Part shown: positions 48,094 to 54,743 of the stretch, piece by piece
Layout of the letters: every line of letters starts with the position of its first letter
How positions within the stretch are numbered: the first letter of the stretch is position 1
Source: Sinorhizobium alkalisoli
GTDB taxonomy: Bacteria > Pseudomonadota > Alphaproteobacteria > Rhizobiales > Rhizobiaceae
Assembly: GCF_008932245.1 (NCBI RefSeq)
Contig: NZ_CP034909.1
Span: 62,001 to 126,000 of the forward strand
DNA length: 64,000 nt
Reading direction: 5' to 3'
Notes under the pieces: model-generated
What the model was told of the DNA's origin: nothing
The model's input: only the letters and a program-made list of their open reading frames with translations
The model's database searches: none
Translations under genes and position numbers: made by a program

Positions 48094-48529
48094 GCCCTCT
48101 CTCCCTCTGGTCGCCAACGAACGGCTGTGCTCACGGCGGAGAAAAACCCTCCAGATCTTCCTCTCCGACGAAGATGCTGCTTTTGCTGCGCATCTTCAAG
48201 CAGTATTCCCGCTTATATGACCTTGACGTAAACGTCAATAAACACAAATAGCGAAGGGACGTCATCCCGCCTAAATCTGCCTGTCATGTGCTTCCGCTAC
48301 AGGAGGCGGAACGCGACGGAGCGCCGACAGTGAAGTGATCACGATGAAAGCGAATTGAATCGGCCTTCGATCAGCACGATGTATTGCAGGCATTCCTTAA
48401 CCGAAACCGAGAAGCATACGACGTCTTGCCGGATGGCCGGCAGCGGAAGCGAATGAACGCCGCCGGTGGGAGATGGGCTGGCAAGGCCATGGGTTTGCTG
48501 TAATGTTGCTAAAAGACGGAGGAATGCAG
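48094..48529. other. 436-base intergenic region between fadD and the AI-2E gene
   Basis: Holds the fadD promoter and operator at 48223-48238. The remainder, toward the plus-strand gene, shows no convincing ORF or repeat. Confidence 0.5.
48223..48238 (-). promoter_or_regulatory. Inverted-repeat operator at the fadD promoter
   Basis: On the fadD strand the site reads TTGACGTTTACGTCAA, a perfect 7-base dyad around TT. TATAAG follows 15 bases after TTGACG, so the site overlaps a plausible promoter. The same 12-base core TTGACGTTTACG recurs at 53325-53346. It resembles the motif I recall for LiuR/MerR-type regulators of fatty and branched-chain acid catabolism. Confidence 0.6.
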
Positions 48530-49708
48530 GTGCAGTTGGGCAATCGCGAGCGAGACAATCCCCCGGCGGAGCCACGGCTCTTCGGGCAGCCGGCCCATTC
48601 ACGCTCCGCCCTGGTCCTGCCAATCTCGGCGGCGCGCTGGCTGCTCGTGCTGGTGCTGCTCGCCGGCGTTTATTTCTTCCACGGCTTCGTGGTGCCGGTG
48701 CTTGCTGCCGTCGTCATCGGCTTTGCCAGCTGGCCGATCTACCGCCATCTGCTGCAGGCGGTAAACGGCAACCGCACGCTCGCCGCGACCATCGCCATCG
48801 TCCTGGTGGTCGCCTTCATCGTCGTGCCGATTTCGATCGCTGCGATCTATGCGGTGCAGGAGGTTCGCGACTGGCTCGTCTGGGCGGTGGCGACCAATGC
48901 GAACGGGGCACCGGTACCCGATTGGCTGGCAACCATACCCATGGCGGGCGACTGGCTCGGTGCGCAATGGGTGAAATATGTCGGCCATCCGGGGGCGCTC
49001 GGCGAGCTGGTGCAGCTCGTCAGCGGCTCGAATATCGGCAACATCTATCGCGGCGTGCTCGTCATCGGCGCCTCCGCCTTTCATGCCTTCCTGACACTGC
49101 TCTTCATGCTGATCACGCTGTTCTTCGTCTATCGTGACGGACAATCGTTTTCGCGGCAGCTCGACCGTCTCGGCGAACAGATCTTTCCGATGCGCTGGGA
49201 ACGACTGTCTCGTGTGGTGCCACTCACCATCAGCTCCACCGTGACCGGCATGGGCATCATCGCGATCGGCGAAGGCATTGTTCTCGGCGTCGCCTATTGG
49301 CTGGCCGGCATGCCTTCGCCGGTGACGCTCGGCATCATTACCGGCATCATGGCCCTCGTCCCGGGCGGTGCGCCGCTGTGCTTCACGCTGGTGTCGGCCT
49401 ATCTGATCGCCAGCGGATCACCCATCCACGGTGTCGCCCTGTTCGTGTGGGGCACGACGGAGCTCTTCATCGTCGACAAGACGCTGCGTCCGAGACTTGT
49501 CGGCGGCCCGATCAAGCTGCCCTTCCTGCCGACGTTCTTCGGCCTCGTCGGCGGCGTCAAGACCATGGGCTTCCTCGGCCTTTTCGTCGGCCCCGTCCTC
49601 ATGGCACTGCTTGTCGCCATCTGGCGTGAGTGGATGCGCGAAGTGACGGCCGACGCGTCTAACCAGGCGGAGGAACCGGTAAAGCGGCTGGATCTCTCCG
49701 CCAAGTAA
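48530..49708 (+). CDS. AI-2E/PerM-family transporter
   Basis: 392 residues from GTG 48530, chosen because GGAGG lies 7 bases before it; the ATG at 48524 is too close to the SD. About seven to eight membrane segments, with the family motifs LLFMLITLFFVYRDGQ and LALVPGGAPL-type (MALVPGGAPLCF) before DKTLRPRLVGG. Members export autoinducer-2, ions or other solutes; substrate unknown. It is the plus-strand neighbour upstream of the lipid cluster but separated by 143 bases. Confidence 0.88.
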   Translation: MQLGNRERDNPPAEPRLFGQPAHSRSALVLPISAARWLLVLVLLAGVYFFHGFVVPVLAAVVIGFASWPIYRHLLQAVNGNRTLAATIAIVLVVAFIVVPISIAAIYAVQEVRDWLVWAVATNANGAPVPDWLATIPMAGDWLGAQWVKYVGHPGALGELVQLVSGSNIGNIYRGVLVIGASAFHAFLTLLFMLITLFFVYRDGQSFSRQLDRLGEQIFPMRWERLSRVVPLTISSTVTGMGIIAIGEGIVLGVAYWLAGMPSPVTLGIITGIMALVPGGAPLCFTLVSAYLIASGSPIHGVALFVWGTTELFIVDKTLRPRLVGGPIKLPFLPTFFGLVGGVKTMGFLGLFVGPVLMALLVAIWREWMREVTADASNQAEEPVKRLDLSAK

Positions 49709-49851
49709 AGTCGGTGTGAGAGGTCGCCGACAGCGCCGTGCGTCTGGAACGCAGGTGTTGCAATGCCCCGCGGGCCCATATGGTCTTTTTCGCCAAGTTG
49801 TTTTAAGACTTGCTGCAATCGTAAAATTTGCACATTCGGTCTTGCGCGAAG

Positions 49852-50511
49852 ATGAATGAGGTTTCCGAGGCGGGCGAAAAGCCGAGTGCCGATCGCCGCC
49901 CGATTGCGGCGCGCCAGAGCGGTTTCGCGCGATGGCTGACGGCCCTCCTTCTCAAGACACCCATCACGCCGAACCAGATTTCGGTCCTCAGCATCGCCTT
50001 TGCGGCAATCGGGGCTGCTGCCATCCTCTTTGCGCCGCGTTGGCCGCTGCTTTATCTGATCGCCGTCCTCTGCACGCAGTTGCGTCTTCTCTGCAATTTG
50101 CTCGACGGGATGGTGGCCGTCGAGGGCGGGCGCGGTTCCGCCGTCGGCGCGCTCTATAACGAGTTTCCGGACCGAGTCGCCGACAGCGTGCTCATCGTTG
50201 CGCTCGGCTATGCTGCAGAAGCGGGTTGGCTCGGCTGGGCGGGTGCGCTCGCGGCGGCGCTCACAGCCTATGTGCGCGTCTTCGGGGGCTCGCTCGGCCA
50301 GGCGCAGGATTTCCGCGGGCCCATGGCGAAACAGCACCGTATGGCGCTCATAAGTCTTGCCTGCGTGCTGGCGCTATTTGAAGCGGCATTGACGACCGAG
50401 CGCCTCGTGCTCTACGGCGCCGCCTGGATCATCCTCGTGGGGTCGTTTCTCACCTGCCTGACCCGCACTAGAGCCATCGTCTCGCGCATCCCTGGAGCAA
50501 CCAGCCCGTGA
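49852..50511 (+). CDS. CDP-alcohol phosphatidyltransferase homologue (YnbA-like) with altered signature
   Basis: 219 residues from ATG 49852 (start uncertain, weak SD), with about six TM segments. The family signature DxxDGxxAR(x8)GxxxDxxxD reads NLLDGMVAV, eight residues, then GALYNEFPD. The first and third aspartates are asparagines and the Arg is valine. From memory, E. coli YnbA has the same NxxDG and LNE replacements, so this is a subfamily trait and not decay. It probably transfers an unknown head group to or from a CDP-lipid. First of three coupled genes. Confidence 0.82.
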   Translation: MNEVSEAGEKPSADRRPIAARQSGFARWLTALLLKTPITPNQISVLSIAFAAIGAAAILFAPRWPLLYLIAVLCTQLRLLCNLLDGMVAVEGGRGSAVGALYNEFPDRVADSVLIVALGYAAEAGWLGWAGALAAALTAYVRVFGGSLGQAQDFRGPMAKQHRMALISLACVLALFEAALTTERLVLYGAAWIILVGSFLTCLTRTRAIVSRIPGATSP

Positions 50512-51119
50512 TCGAGACCCTGCTGATCGCCCTCACACGCTTTCTCGTCGGCGGTCAGGCGCGATGGACGGGCGCTGGGCCGGAACCGCGCCAGCGCATC
50601 TATTTCGCCAATCACGCCAGCCACCTGGATACGCTGCTCATCTGGTCGGCGCTGCCGCGACCGTTGCGTGCGTCCACGCATCCGATCGCCGCCGCTGACT
50701 ATTGGGGCAGCGGCAACATCCGGCGCCACATTGCGCTTAAGGTGCTGAATGCCGTACTTGTGGAACGCTCCGCCAAGGGACCGCCGGGGGCGGCGTTGGC
50801 GCCTTTGCGCGGTGTCCTGTCGGAGGGAGGCTCTCTCATTCTCTTTCCCGAGGGCACCCGCGGCAGCGAGCGCCTTCCGGGCCCCTTCAAAAGCGGTCTC
50901 TATTGGCTGGCGCAGGATTTCCCGGATGCCGAGCTGATCCCGACCTATCTCGACAATCCCTCGCGCGCCTTTCCCAAGGGAGCTTTCTTGCCCGTTCCGA
51001 TCAGTTGCACGGTTCGTTTCGGCGCGCCGCTCGCCCGCCGCCAGGGCGAAGAGAAGGATGAATTTCTAGAGCGCGCCCGGCAGGCCGTGAGCGCACTTGC
51101 GTCGGACGCGATCGCGTGA
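50508..51119 (+). CDS. PlsC-type 1-acylglycerol-phosphate acyltransferase
   Basis: 203 residues, GTG start overlapping the previous stop (GTGA). HX4D motif NHASHLD (about 31-37), block III FPEGTRGSERLPGPFKSG (about 115-132) and the later PTYLDNP. This is the LPLAT fold that acylates lysophosphatidate-type acceptors. Placed between a CDP-alcohol transferase and a CdsA-like gene, it could supply the diacyl substrate for a dedicated phospholipid. Confidence 0.88.
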   Translation: MIETLLIALTRFLVGGQARWTGAGPEPRQRIYFANHASHLDTLLIWSALPRPLRASTHPIAAADYWGSGNIRRHIALKVLNAVLVERSAKGPPGAALAPLRGVLSEGGSLILFPEGTRGSERLPGPFKSGLYWLAQDFPDAELIPTYLDNPSRAFPKGAFLPVPISCTVRFGAPLARRQGEEKDEFLERARQAVSALASDAIA

Positions 51120-51126
51120 GGCCGCC

Positions 51127-52068
51127 ATGTCTTTGATGGACAAGCTTTTCATCCTCTTCGGCGGTATTTGCGGGCTACTCGCCATAGCCTCGATGATCGG
51201 CTTGGCGCTGTCGCGCAGCACCACGTCCGAAACCGGCCGGGCGACCGTCGACAATCTCAATGCCCGCATCGGGGCTTGGTGGGTGATGGTCGCGATCTTC
51301 GCCGTGAGCTTCGGCCTCGGCCGGGGAGCGACCGTGCTTCTCTTCGCGCTTACGTCATTCTATACGCTGCGGGAGTTCGTATCGCTGACGCCGACGCGTG
51401 CGGCCGATCATCTGCCCCTGGTCGGCGCCTTCTACCTGCTGCTGCCGCTTCAGTACTGGCTGGTCTGGATCGACTGGTATGCGCTGTTCACGATCCTGAT
51501 CCCGGTCTACGGTTTCCTGCTCCTTCCGAGCCTTGCGGCGTTGCGGGGCGATACCGGGCAATTTCTGCTGCGCGTCTCGCGCATTCAATGGGGGCTCATG
51601 CTGACGGTCTTTTGCATCAGCCACGCGCCCGCCCTGATCACGCTCGATATTGCCGGCTACGAGGGCCAGGAGTTCCTGTTGCTCTTCTTCCTGATCACCG
51701 TCGCGCAGTTCAGCGACGTGATGCAATATGTCTTCGGCAAGCTGATGGGGTGGACAAAAGTTGCGCCCGCGGTGAGCCCGTCAAAAACCGTAGAGGGCCT
51801 CGTCGGCGGCGGGCTCTCTGCCGTACTGGCGGGAGCCGGACTCTGGTGGATCACGCCTTTCACGCCGCTCGAGGCAGCGGCCATGGCGCTGGCGATTGTC
51901 GCCATGGGTTTCCTCGGCGGGCTGGCGCTCTCCGCCGTCAAACGCTCCATGGGTGTGAAGGATTGGGGCACGATGATCAGCGGTCATGGCGGGGTACTGG
52001 ATCGCATGGATTCGCTGAGTTTCGCCGCACCCGTCTTCTTCCACCTGACGCGGTATTTCTATACATGA
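51127..52068 (+). CDS. CdsA-like phosphatidate cytidylyltransferase (YnbB-like)
   Basis: 313 residues from ATG 51127, eight bases after the acyltransferase stop. About eight TM segments. The CDS signature at the C-terminus reads SAVKRSMGVKDWGTMISGHGG followed by LDRMDS, with SPSKTVEGLVGGG before it. These conserve the metal- and CTP-binding residues. The N-terminal region (RIGAWWVMVAIFAV, LTSFYTLREF) resembles E. coli YnbB rather than the essential CdsA. It would make a CDP-lipid for the first gene of this cluster. Confidence 0.88.
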   Translation: MSLMDKLFILFGGICGLLAIASMIGLALSRSTTSETGRATVDNLNARIGAWWVMVAIFAVSFGLGRGATVLLFALTSFYTLREFVSLTPTRAADHLPLVGAFYLLLPLQYWLVWIDWYALFTILIPVYGFLLLPSLAALRGDTGQFLLRVSRIQWGLMLTVFCISHAPALITLDIAGYEGQEFLLLFFLITVAQFSDVMQYVFGKLMGWTKVAPAVSPSKTVEGLVGGGLSAVLAGAGLWWITPFTPLEAAAMALAIVAMGFLGGLALSAVKRSMGVKDWGTMISGHGGVLDRMDSLSFAAPVFFHLTRYFYT

Positions 52069-52144
52069 CTCACTCGCTGGAGCAGCCAGTCCTGTGAGCC
52101 GTAACCTTGCGTCACGACCTATACGGCGATGTGCTTGAAAAGAA

Positions 52145-52220
52145 TGGTGCCGCTTACGTGACTCGAACACGTGACCCCATCATTACGAATGATGTGCTCT
52201 ACCGACTGAGCTAAAGCGGC
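52145..52220 (-). tRNA. tRNA-Thr (anticodon CGT)
   Basis: 76 bases including encoded CCA on the minus strand. Acceptor GCCGCTT pairs with AAGCGGC, D-arm GCTCAGTCGGTAGAGC. Anticodon stem CATCA/TGATG encloses loop TTCGTAA with anticodon CGT, and the T-arm contains TTCGAGT. Reads ACG. The start of the nitronate-monooxygenase-like gene's 3' region lies 78 bases away. Confidence 0.97.
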
Positions 52221-52297
52221 CCATGAGGCGGTTCCGCAGATGGCCGCGGAACGGATGTGAGGCGCTGATAAACGCAAAGCGGCAAGAATTCAAGCCA

Positions 52298-53308
52298 TCA
52301 GTTTCGAGAACCTGAAAATTCCTTGGAGGCGCGCCGCTCCCCTTGGGGCGAAAGCCCGAGGCGGGCGCGGGCGGCGTCGTATTCGCGCTTCAGCCGATCG
52401 ACCATTTGGGCGACTGGACCGATCTCACGGACCGCTCCGATTCCCTGGCCGCAGCCCCAGATATCCTTCCACGCCTTGGCGCCGTCGGCGGCATTGCCGA
52501 AGTCCATCTTGGACGGGTCTGCCTCCGGCAGGTTGTCCGGGTCCATGCCCGCGGCGCGGATCGAGGCCTTGAGATAATTGCCGTGGATGCCGGTAAAATA
52601 GTTGGAATAGACGATGTCGGCGGCGGCGCTGTCGACGATCATCTGCTTGTAGGCGTCGCTGGCTCGGGCCTCTTCGGTGGCGATGAAGGGCGAGCCGATA
52701 TAGGCCATGTCGGCGCCCATCGCCTCGGCAGCGAGGATTGCGCCGCCGGTGGCTATCGCGCCGGAGAGGAGCAGGGGCCCGTCGAACCAGGCGCGGATTT
52801 CCTGTACGAGTGCGAAGGGCGAGAGCGTGCCGGCATGGCCGCCGGCGCCGGCGGCGACCGCGATCAGTCCGTCGGCGCCCTTGCGGATCGCGGAGTTCGC
52901 ATGGCGGTTGTTGATGACGTCATGCAGCACGATCCCGCCATAGGAATGGATCGCATCGTTCACCTCCGGCACCGCGCCGAGCGAGGAGATGACGACAGGC
53001 ACCTTGTATTTGACGCAAAGCATCAGGTCGTGCTCGAGGCGGGCGTTCGACTTGTGGACGATCTGGTTCACGGCGAAAGGGGCGGCCGGACGGTCCGGGT
53101 TCTTGGCATCGTGCTCGGCGAGCGATTCGGTGATCTCGGCCAGCCAATCTTCGAGCTGCGCCTGCGGGCGCGCGTTCAGGGCCGGGAAGGCGCCGATGAC
53201 GCCCGCCTTGCATTGGGCAATCGTCAGCTTCGGATGCGAGACGATGAAGAGCGGTGCTGCGACAACGGGCAGTCTCGTCGTTCCGGAAAGGATTGGCGGC
53301 AACGGCAT
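52298..53308 (-). CDS. Nitronate monooxygenase-like FMN protein
   Basis: 336 residues of the NPD/2-nitropropane dioxygenase TIM-barrel family. FMN-binding parts are VVAAPLFIVSHP at the start, GLIAVAAGAGGHAG (about 145-158), LLLSGAIATGG and MGADMAYIGSPF. It oxidises alkyl nitronates or related substrates; close family members may act on acyl-CoA-like molecules. The promoter carries the same operator as fadD, which suggests a place in fatty acid catabolism. Confidence 0.88.
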   Translation of the reverse strand: MPLPPILSGTTRLPVVAAPLFIVSHPKLTIAQCKAGVIGAFPALNARPQAQLEDWLAEITESLAEHDAKNPDRPAAPFAVNQIVHKSNARLEHDLMLCVKYKVPVVISSLGAVPEVNDAIHSYGGIVLHDVINNRHANSAIRKGADGLIAVAAGAGGHAGTLSPFALVQEIRAWFDGPLLLSGAIATGGAILAAEAMGADMAYIGSPFIATEEARASDAYKQMIVDSAAADIVYSNYFTGIHGNYLKASIRAAGMDPDNLPEADPSKMDFGNAADGAKAWKDIWGCGQGIGAVREIGPVAQMVDRLKREYDAARARLGLSPQGERRASKEFSGSRN

Positions 53309-53346: not shown

Positions 53347-53588
53347 AACAGATAGCAGCAAGCGGCGTGCTTTGCTAGGCCCGAGCTCGACGGCAATCGT
53401 CTCCCCGAGCGTTATCGGTAGAAGGGAATATCCGCACGTGTCAGCTTTTTCCCGTGCGAGGCAGAGGAAGACGCAGCTGGACTTGCAGTTTGCGAAAGCA
53501 GCGGTTACCCAATCCTTAATGAAACCAATGGCGCCGGGAAAGAGACCGGTGATCGTTGGCCCGAGGTCGATGCGCAGAAGGAGCTGAC

Positions 53589-54743
53589 GTGAGCGGACTT
53601 GAGACTGCCATCAGGAATGCGCTGGAGCGTTCGGACCGGAGCAATGCGGAGACCCGCGCGCGCATCTATCAGTCGGCACGCCAGGCGCTGGAAAACGGCC
53701 TGCAGAAGCAGCAGATCGAGGATCCGGAGTTCATCGCCAAACAGCGCCATCGGCTTGAAGCGATCATCCATGCAATCGAGACGGAGGAGCGTGCCGCCCT
53801 GAAGGCGCGCACGACGGCACCGCCCGTCGTCAGTTTTGGAGAAGGACGGCCGGGACAGGTGAAGGCAGGCGGCGGTGCCGCCGGCGTCGAGCCGCCGACG
53901 CGTCGCGAGCCGGCGTTCGAGGGTGCCCGGCCGGCTGCGCAGGCCGATGCGGGGCTGCAGGCGCTGCGAGCGGACCGGGACGGGCCCATGGTTTCCACGC
54001 GCCCGGCCGCCGAGGAGACGAGGCAGGCCGCCGGTGCCCACTCCACTCCCGCGGCGTCCGACCTCGGCGTCACGGACAAGCGTCCGCGCAAGCGCCGGCG
54101 CGGACGCTTGCTATCCTTTCTCATGGTTTTCACGACGCTCGCCGCCGCGGCAGGTGCCGCTGTCTGGTGGGTTCAGACAAACGACCTTCTGAGGCCGCCC
54201 GCCGATACCAATGTCGCCAACCCGCCTCCGAGCGTCGAGACGGAGGACTTCAGCGGTGCGGCCCTGCCGACGCTTGGCGAGCAGGAGGGTTTCTCTTCCG
54301 ATTGGATCGAGATATTCACGGCTGCAGAAGCCGCAGCAGTCAGGCCGGCTGCGCGCGCCAGGGCCGAACCAGTGGACGACGGCGGCGGCGCCCGCGTCCG
54401 CCTCACTTCGATGACCGTGACGGAAGACGGCGATGTGGCCATCGAAATTCCGGCGGATGTTTTGTCCGAACTCTCGGGCAAATCGTCTACTCTGGCCCTG
54501 AGCGTCAAGGCGTTGCCCGGCAAGGCGACGGAATTCGCCGTCGAGTGCGATTTCTCCACTCTGGGCGCCTGTGGCCGCCATCGGTTCACCGTTCACGACG
54601 AAAGGCTGGACATGCTGTTCAAGGTGTCCTTCGACCGGAGCCTCGCGCCGAACAGCCCCGGAAGGCTGCTGATTAACAGCGACGTCAGCGGCGGCGGCAA
54701 CAGCCTCGAGGTCTACGCGATCCGCGTGCTGCCCGGACAGTGA
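53589..54743 (+). CDS. Single-span membrane protein of unknown function
   Basis: 384 residues from GTG 53589, which has AGAAGGAG five bases upstream. The N-terminal helical segment (about 1-80, SGLETAIRNALERS through RHRLEAIIHAIETEERAAL) is probably coiled coil. A disordered Pro/Ala/Gly-rich linker of about 90 residues follows. A basic stop-transfer patch KRPRKRRRGR then precedes one TM (about 176-195, LLSFLMVFTTLAAAAGAAVWW). The C-terminal part is probably periplasmic and contains a paired-cysteine segment (CDFSTLGAC). I do not recognise the family. Confidence 0.8.
   Translation: MSGLETAIRNALERSDRSNAETRARIYQSARQALENGLQKQQIEDPEFIAKQRHRLEAIIHAIETEERAALKARTTAPPVVSFGEGRPGQVKAGGGAAGVEPPTRREPAFEGARPAAQADAGLQALRADRDGPMVSTRPAAEETRQAAGAHSTPAASDLGVTDKRPRKRRRGRLLSFLMVFTTLAAAAGAAVWWVQTNDLLRPPADTNVANPPPSVETEDFSGAALPTLGEQEGFSSDWIEIFTAAEAAAVRPAARARAEPVDDGGGARVRLTSMTVTEDGDVAIEIPADVLSELSGKSSTLALSVKALPGKATEFAVECDFSTLGACGRHRFTVHDERLDMLFKVSFDRSLAPNSPGRLLINSDVSGGGNSLEVYAIRVLPGQ

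Follow-up and report, generated by a model that had tools for sequence, protein, structure and literature searches.

A conserved YnbA/YnbB-like gene set with an acyltransferase in Sinorhizobium alkalisoli: a candidate dedicated phospholipid branch

Results

A 64,000-nucleotide stretch of the Sinorhizobium alkalisoli genome (NZ_CP034909.1, positions 62,001 to 126,000; hereafter the window, whose first letter is position 1) carries three plus-strand genes at 49852-52068. We named their products YA (CDP-alcohol phosphotransferase fold), ACT (PlsC-like) and YB (YnbB/CdsA-like), and the genome of the window G000 (6.13 Mb; closest named homologues from Sinorhizobium/Ensifer). The three-gene set is found again in many Proteobacteria, and a membrane lipid of its own is its probable product. 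From its residues we infer an altered metal use for YA, which has Asn in place of two of the four signature aspartates of CDP-alcohol phosphotransferases (CDP-APs). With slightly better than even confidence, we regard YA-ACT-YB as a dedicated, non-housekeeping phospholipid branch in which formation of phosphatidic acid, CDP activation and phosphatidyl transfer to an anionic acceptor would give a minor phospholipid.

YA (49852..50511; 219 aa) starts with ATG, while its mechanically called open reading frame begins upstream at TTG 49828. The GTG start of ACT (50508..51119; 203 aa) overlaps the end of YA by 4 nt, and a gap of 7 nt leads to the ATG of YB (51127..52068; 313 aa). ACT matched PF01553 (49.3 bits) and carries NHASHLD and FPEGTR, which we take to represent the NHx4D and FPEGTR motif patterns of PlsC acyltransferases. 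YB matched PF01148 (198.7 bits), contains an intact CdsA signature, as judged by what we presume to be the signature pattern, and shares 40% identity with E. coli YnbB over 296 aligned columns. A second CTP_transf_1 enzyme is present in G000. The original prediction, made from the letters of the window alone, had described three overlapping or nearly abutting plus-strand genes with a YnbB-like third product; both statements were borne out.

The signature of YA reads N-LL-DG-MV-A-V-E...G-ALY-N-EFP-D and fails the four-Asp pattern D1xxD2G1xxAR...G2xxxD3xxxD4 by N82 for D1, N103 for D3 and V90 for Arg, with Asp 2 and Asp 4 kept. The Asn replacements at the first and third aspartate had been noticed beforehand and likened to those of E. 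coli YnbA, which indeed proved to be N-D-N-D as well. Among the best 120 of 7868 YA homologues, one of which is the window's own, 119 fitted N..DG..A....G...N...D; the single misfit keeps both Asn but replaces the Ala of the pattern by Ser. From fetched loci we assembled 133 distinct YA-like rows, including L003, another CDP-AP of G000 that was kept in the counts. N-D-N-D was found in 131/133 of these rows, the exceptions being A-D-N-D (L166) and the unrelated L003 enzyme, and Asp 2 and Asp 4 were invariant (133/133). Seven reference CDP-APs served for comparison, namely phosphatidylinositol-phosphate synthase (PIPS), AF2299, two PgsA and three more enzymes of G000, in which genome two enzymes are taken here as PssA and Pcs. 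All seven have Asp at position 1, and five have Asp at position 3, where the other two are misaligned in that alignment. The codon for N82 is AAT in 64 rows and AAC in 67, and median dN/dS values across 21 loci were 0.14 for YA, 0.14 for ACT and 0.10 for YB (209, 210 and 210 of 210 pairs used). Codon mix and dN/dS together thus indicate that the Asn is kept by purifying selection.

The residues in question are encoded on the plus strand as follows. N82 (AAT, 50095..50097) replaces signature Asp 1 (D68 of MtPgsA1), D85 (50104..50106) corresponds to the conserved Asp 2 (D71), and N103 (AAC, 50158..50160) replaces Asp 3 (D89). Asp 4 is retained as D107, equivalent to the proposed base D93, and is followed by R108 (PIPS R94; both in 50170..50175). 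R78 (50083..50085) is Arg in 132/133 rows and in 0/7 reference CDP-APs. E104 (50161..50163), directly after Asp 3, is Glu in 128/133 rows and Asp in 4/133; in phosphatidylserine synthase (PSS) and PIPS, this position is reported to lie on the acceptor side (PMC8633023, PMC6506517). Further basic positions are R142 (50275..50277; PIPS K135), K160-x-x-R163 (50329..50340), the equivalent of the phosphate-acceptor motif R152-x-x-R155 of PIPS, and R205 (50464..50466; PIPS R195). K160 and R163 each occur in 132/133 rows and R205 in 133/133; these three, together with E91, E104, D111 and T201, make up a further set of near-fixed positions.

YA scored 19.7 bits against PF01066, under the gathering score of 22, while E. 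coli YnbA scored 39.2; the predicted fold of YA is that of a class-I CDP-AP. Its top NCBIfam matches were archaetidylinositol-phosphate synthase (62.4 of 180 bits) and PIPS (40.6 of 170 bits), both missing the equivalog cut-offs, and PIPS was among its best PDB profile and fold matches. Five of six basic pocket residues of PIPS mapped onto YA are kept, and the phosphate-binding R155/R195 align with R163/R205. Predicted fold, profile and residues together place YA near PIPS.

In a single BLASTP comparison, YA and E. coli YnbA aligned with 26% identity over 100 aa (E 2e-9). A tree of 38 rows separated a YnbA type (R90, V108, G142; E. coli and Pseudomonas-like; support 100/99) from the window type (V/I/L90, R108, R142; 97/94), and the two clades join at 88/83; the wider root is unsure because the reference branches are long. 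The presumed kinship with YnbA is supported, but YA belongs to a sister clade, told apart by R108/R142, rather than to the clade holding E. coli YnbA, and PF12147, the methyltransferase family of YnbC, which accompanies the E. coli and Pseudomonas-like operons, was not found in G000. Neither of the two outcomes that the original prediction had set against itself occurred: YA did not cluster with ordinary PgsA or PssA, and the triad proved to be conserved (below). One genome (G102) seems to carry both YA types, judged by score and neighbours: of its two matches, which lie on different contigs, that of 281 bits neighbours YB and that of 137 bits the YnbC family. In G310, a 128-bit YA was accompanied by a second, partial match (residues 4-60) next to YB.

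To survey the gene neighbourhood, named loci were scanned with patterns based on the subfamily to which YA of the window belongs, and of 509 the 80 best were retained; these 80 therefore sample close kin. YA-ACT-YB occurred in this order on one strand in 76 of them, which supports the proposal of a dedicated set for acylation, CDP activation and head-group transfer. Of the four others, L098 lies at a contig end, L076 has a YB fragment only, and L069 and L080 come from Pasteurellaceae (see Discussion). Locus titles named genera of the alpha-, beta- and gammaproteobacteria, plus one metagenome-assembled genome titled Planctomycetota (L084).

A broader sample comprised 398 genomes of the phylum, G000 included. 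YA was called at a threshold of at least 100 bits, reached by 57 of 62 matching genomes (the other 5 at 37-45 bits), and YnbB-type YB at a threshold of at least 187 bits, reached by 69 of 98 (the other 29 at 124-146 bits, mostly in the C-terminal half and presumed to be CdsA). YB was present in 56/57 genomes with YA versus 13/341 others (Fisher p ~2e-54, computed with N 399 and one table cell one too large). In 53/58 places YA shared a contig with YB, 52 of these within 6.4 kb. PF12147 was found in 26/398 genomes, every one with YA. Gene orders were YA-ACT-YB, ACT-YB-YX-YA, YA-YB-ACT, YA-YnbC-YnbD-ACT-YB and, in E. coli, YA-YB-YnbC-YnbD. No further conserved neighbour that would name the head group was found; the next commonest family, which from its sequence we take to be an ABC ATPase, occurred in 14 of 81 clustered loci. 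Nor did the scanned YB-only and type-III loci share a neighbour family, their neighbours being mixed.

The gene for the protein designated YX (~130 aa, four predicted transmembrane helices) directly adjoins that for YA, in most cases within an ACT-YB-YX-YA cluster (e.g., L126:1110-1505, L027:1100-1492). YX was present in 12/60 relatives, next to YA in 12/12, and in 0/21 genomes with the window-type cluster. Neither the L153 copy (Pfam and NCBIfam) nor the L147 copy (Pfam only) gave a significant match. The AlphaFold model (pLDDT 92.1) had no significant PDB fold match (best E 1.0), which is not proof of a new fold.

Within the genus (33 genomes, G000 counted), 21 genomes have a YA 77-100% identical to that of the window, 11 have one with 44-48% identity, and G015 has none; two YA kinds in one genome were not found among the 33. 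In the first 21 genomes the genes were read in the order YA-ACT-YB. Where YA is of the second kind, reading covered YB and YA in 8 cases and also ACT in the two longer stretches (L147, L148). That the two kinds replace each other suggests a shared role.

The operon follows an AI-2E-family transporter gene (48473-49708) after an intergenic region at 49709..49851 (plus strand), and a tRNA-Thr gene lies downstream on the minus strand (52145-52220). No sigma-70 consensus site was found in 49600-52350. In S. meliloti, the gene adjoining tRNA-Thr is SMc02151 (PMC2573895; see also PMC5127829); by position, SMc02151 would be the S. meliloti YB homologue. A predicted protein of 395 aa (53556-54743), encoded between nitronate monooxygenase-like and PPK2 genes, had no Pfam or NCBIfam match, and a similar family occurs in 5 of the clustered neighbouring Sinorhizobium loci. 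Just beyond the window, ~19 kb downstream of YA, another CDP-AP of ~204 aa with Asp signature residues is encoded (G000:C1:131027-131458).

Discussion

In the branch that we favour, ACT would acylate lysophosphatidic acid to phosphatidic acid, YB would convert the latter with CTP to CDP-diacylglycerol (CDP-DAG), and YA would then move the phosphatidyl group onto an acceptor bearing a phosphate or another anionic group. YA keeps Asp 2, Asp 4, the Gly/Ala of the predicted nucleotide site and a putative PIPS-like basic acceptor pocket. With Asn at two metal-binding positions, those of Asp 1 and Asp 3, YA would have to hold the metals or the CDP-DAG diphosphate differently, and the near-invariant R78 and E104 are candidate compensators for the lost aspartates. 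In the E. coli and Pseudomonas-like relatives, YnbD, with dual-specificity and PAP2-like phosphatase domains, and YnbC, a hydrolase/methyltransferase, would finish the head group.

Among the matches listed from the open-access literature, none gave an experimental activity or function of YnbA or dealt with the YA-ACT-YB triad. YnbA was formerly annotated as a cholinephosphotransferase, a reaction reported as withdrawn from EcoCyc (PMC3781023), and an acid-tolerance transcriptome recorded a 3-fold increase of ynbA (PMC12871917). The statement in the original prediction that the function of ynbA/B is unknown needs correction for YnbB: this CdsA paralogue is described as making CDP-DAG in vitro and as supporting formation of the glycolipid MPIase and its precursor, not of bulk phospholipid (PMC6362211, PMC7018664). 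Phosphoglyceride-linked enterobacterial common antigen was reported not to need ynbB (PMC8609368).

Several observations weigh against a dedicated phospholipid branch. In M. jannaschii PSS, changing any signature Asp was reported to reduce activity strongly or abolish it, and D62N (Asp 3) was not rescued by Mg2+ (PMC8633023); by this measure YA may have no catalytic activity. Two of the five basic residues are missing from the YnbA clade proper (V/I108, G142), which weakens the anionic-acceptor argument there. YA occurs without ACT or YB in the stretch read of both Pasteurellaceae loci (L069, L080) and without nearby ACT and YB in a G453 locus; genome G344 encodes a YA-like protein, with Ala for N82, but no YB, and E. 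coli ynbABCD has no adjacent acyltransferase. Among the 13 YB-only genomes, 7 loci were read (L177-L183), and in 7/7 ACT and YB stand as a pair, with YA absent from the stretch fetched. As ACT-YB persists without a nearby YA, the dedicated acyltransferase and CDP-DAG synthase pair may serve other consumers. YnbB, finally, is reported to be unable to replace CdsA for bulk phospholipid (PMC6362211).

Some of these points lead to a different explanation, to which we give roughly one chance in five: YA may bind CDP-DAG as a pseudoenzyme with a regulatory, scaffolding or channelling role for ACT-YB, the output being extra CDP-DAG or phosphatidic acid. The loss of two of four metal aspartates in YA would fit, as would the reported inactivation of M. 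jannaschii PSS by D62N (PMC8633023), and the seven loci with ACT-YB alone make this pair a module of its own. However, Asp 2, Asp 4 and the acceptor-site residues K160, R163 and R205 are too well conserved for this to be comfortable; a dead enzyme with a kept acceptor site and one fixed substitution pattern is, in our judgement, improbable. Moreover, the sister clade has YnbC and YnbD as partners, which points to the processing of a product.

An involvement in MPIase formation is rather doubtful. Here, YB would make CDP-DAG, and YA, or YB alone, would join GlcNAc-1-phosphate to yield GlcNAc-PP-DAG, for YA-ACT-YB as for YnbA/YnbB. Overproduced CdsA and YnbB were reported to raise MPIase, and YnbB is linked with MPIase and not with bulk phospholipid activity (PMC6362211, PMC7018664); a phosphate nucleophile would also suit a less negative active site with a phosphate-binding pocket. 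Yet partially purified CdsA8 was reported to make GlcNAc-PP-DAG (PMC6362211), so that YnbA is not obviously needed, and ynbB deletion was reported to bring no significant change in MPIase. A bolder and quite unlikely reading is that YA founds an N-D-N-D subclass in which R78 and E104 partly replace the dinuclear metal site. Such an enzyme would join CDP-DAG to an anionic phosphate nucleophile (e.g., a sugar-1-phosphate), and its product would be a glycolipid primer with a diacylglycerol-pyrophosphate linkage. YA would then be the diacylglycerol counterpart of WecA, supplied throughout the Proteobacteria by an acyltransferase and a CDP-DAG synthase of its own.

We consider it very unlikely that YA is a redundant phosphatidylglycerophosphate synthase, a notion that goes back to database names (JGI gives 'phosphatidylglycerophosphate synthase' for many YA homologues among the best 120 of 7868); an ordinary PgsA or PssA was rejected on the tree, in which YA joins the YnbA rows, and on the profile and fold matches. 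Least probable of all is a PIPS or archaetidylinositol-phosphate synthase using inositol phosphate, for although the top NCBIfam, PDB profile and fold matches and the R155/R195 equivalents speak for it, the equivalog cut-offs are missed, Asp 1 and Asp 3 are Asn, and it was rejected on precursor supply, PF07994 (inositol-phosphate synthase) being found in 6/398 genomes, not in G000 and in 0 of 62 YA genomes, a count that does not cover inositol phosphate supplied by a kinase or by import.

The lipid operon is conserved, and relatives of it occur in E. coli K-12 and in Sinorhizobium that can be handled in the laboratory. With its single, fixed deviation from the defining catalytic motif of CDP-APs, YA would test how much of the dinuclear metal site is needed. 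YnbB has hitherto been discussed as an MPIase backup; through the linkage it acquires partners for which an account of its role must find a place.

Comparison with known systems

YB shares PF01148 and the CdsA signature with the CDP-DAG synthase CdsA, but missed the equivalog score of PRK11624 (89.5 of 385 bits, residues 152-307 only). Likewise, ACT has PF01553, NHx4D and FPEGTR in common with the 1-acyl-glycerol-3-phosphate acyltransferase PlsC, but stayed under the TIGR00530 cut-off (43.4 vs 102.95 bits). From mycobacterial PIPS (PgsA1, PDB 6h53/6h59) and AF2299, YA differs by the Asn at Asp 1/3 and by the missed equivalog scores. E. coli YnbA/YnbB shares with the window the N-D-N-D signature, the equivalents of R78, E91, E104, K160, R163 and R205, and an adjoining YnbB-type CDP-DAG synthase, while YnbA has V/G for R108/R142 and AR for AV. 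E. coli ynbABCD comprises YnbC and YnbD and no acyltransferase, whereas the operon of the window has an acyltransferase and neither YnbC nor YnbD.
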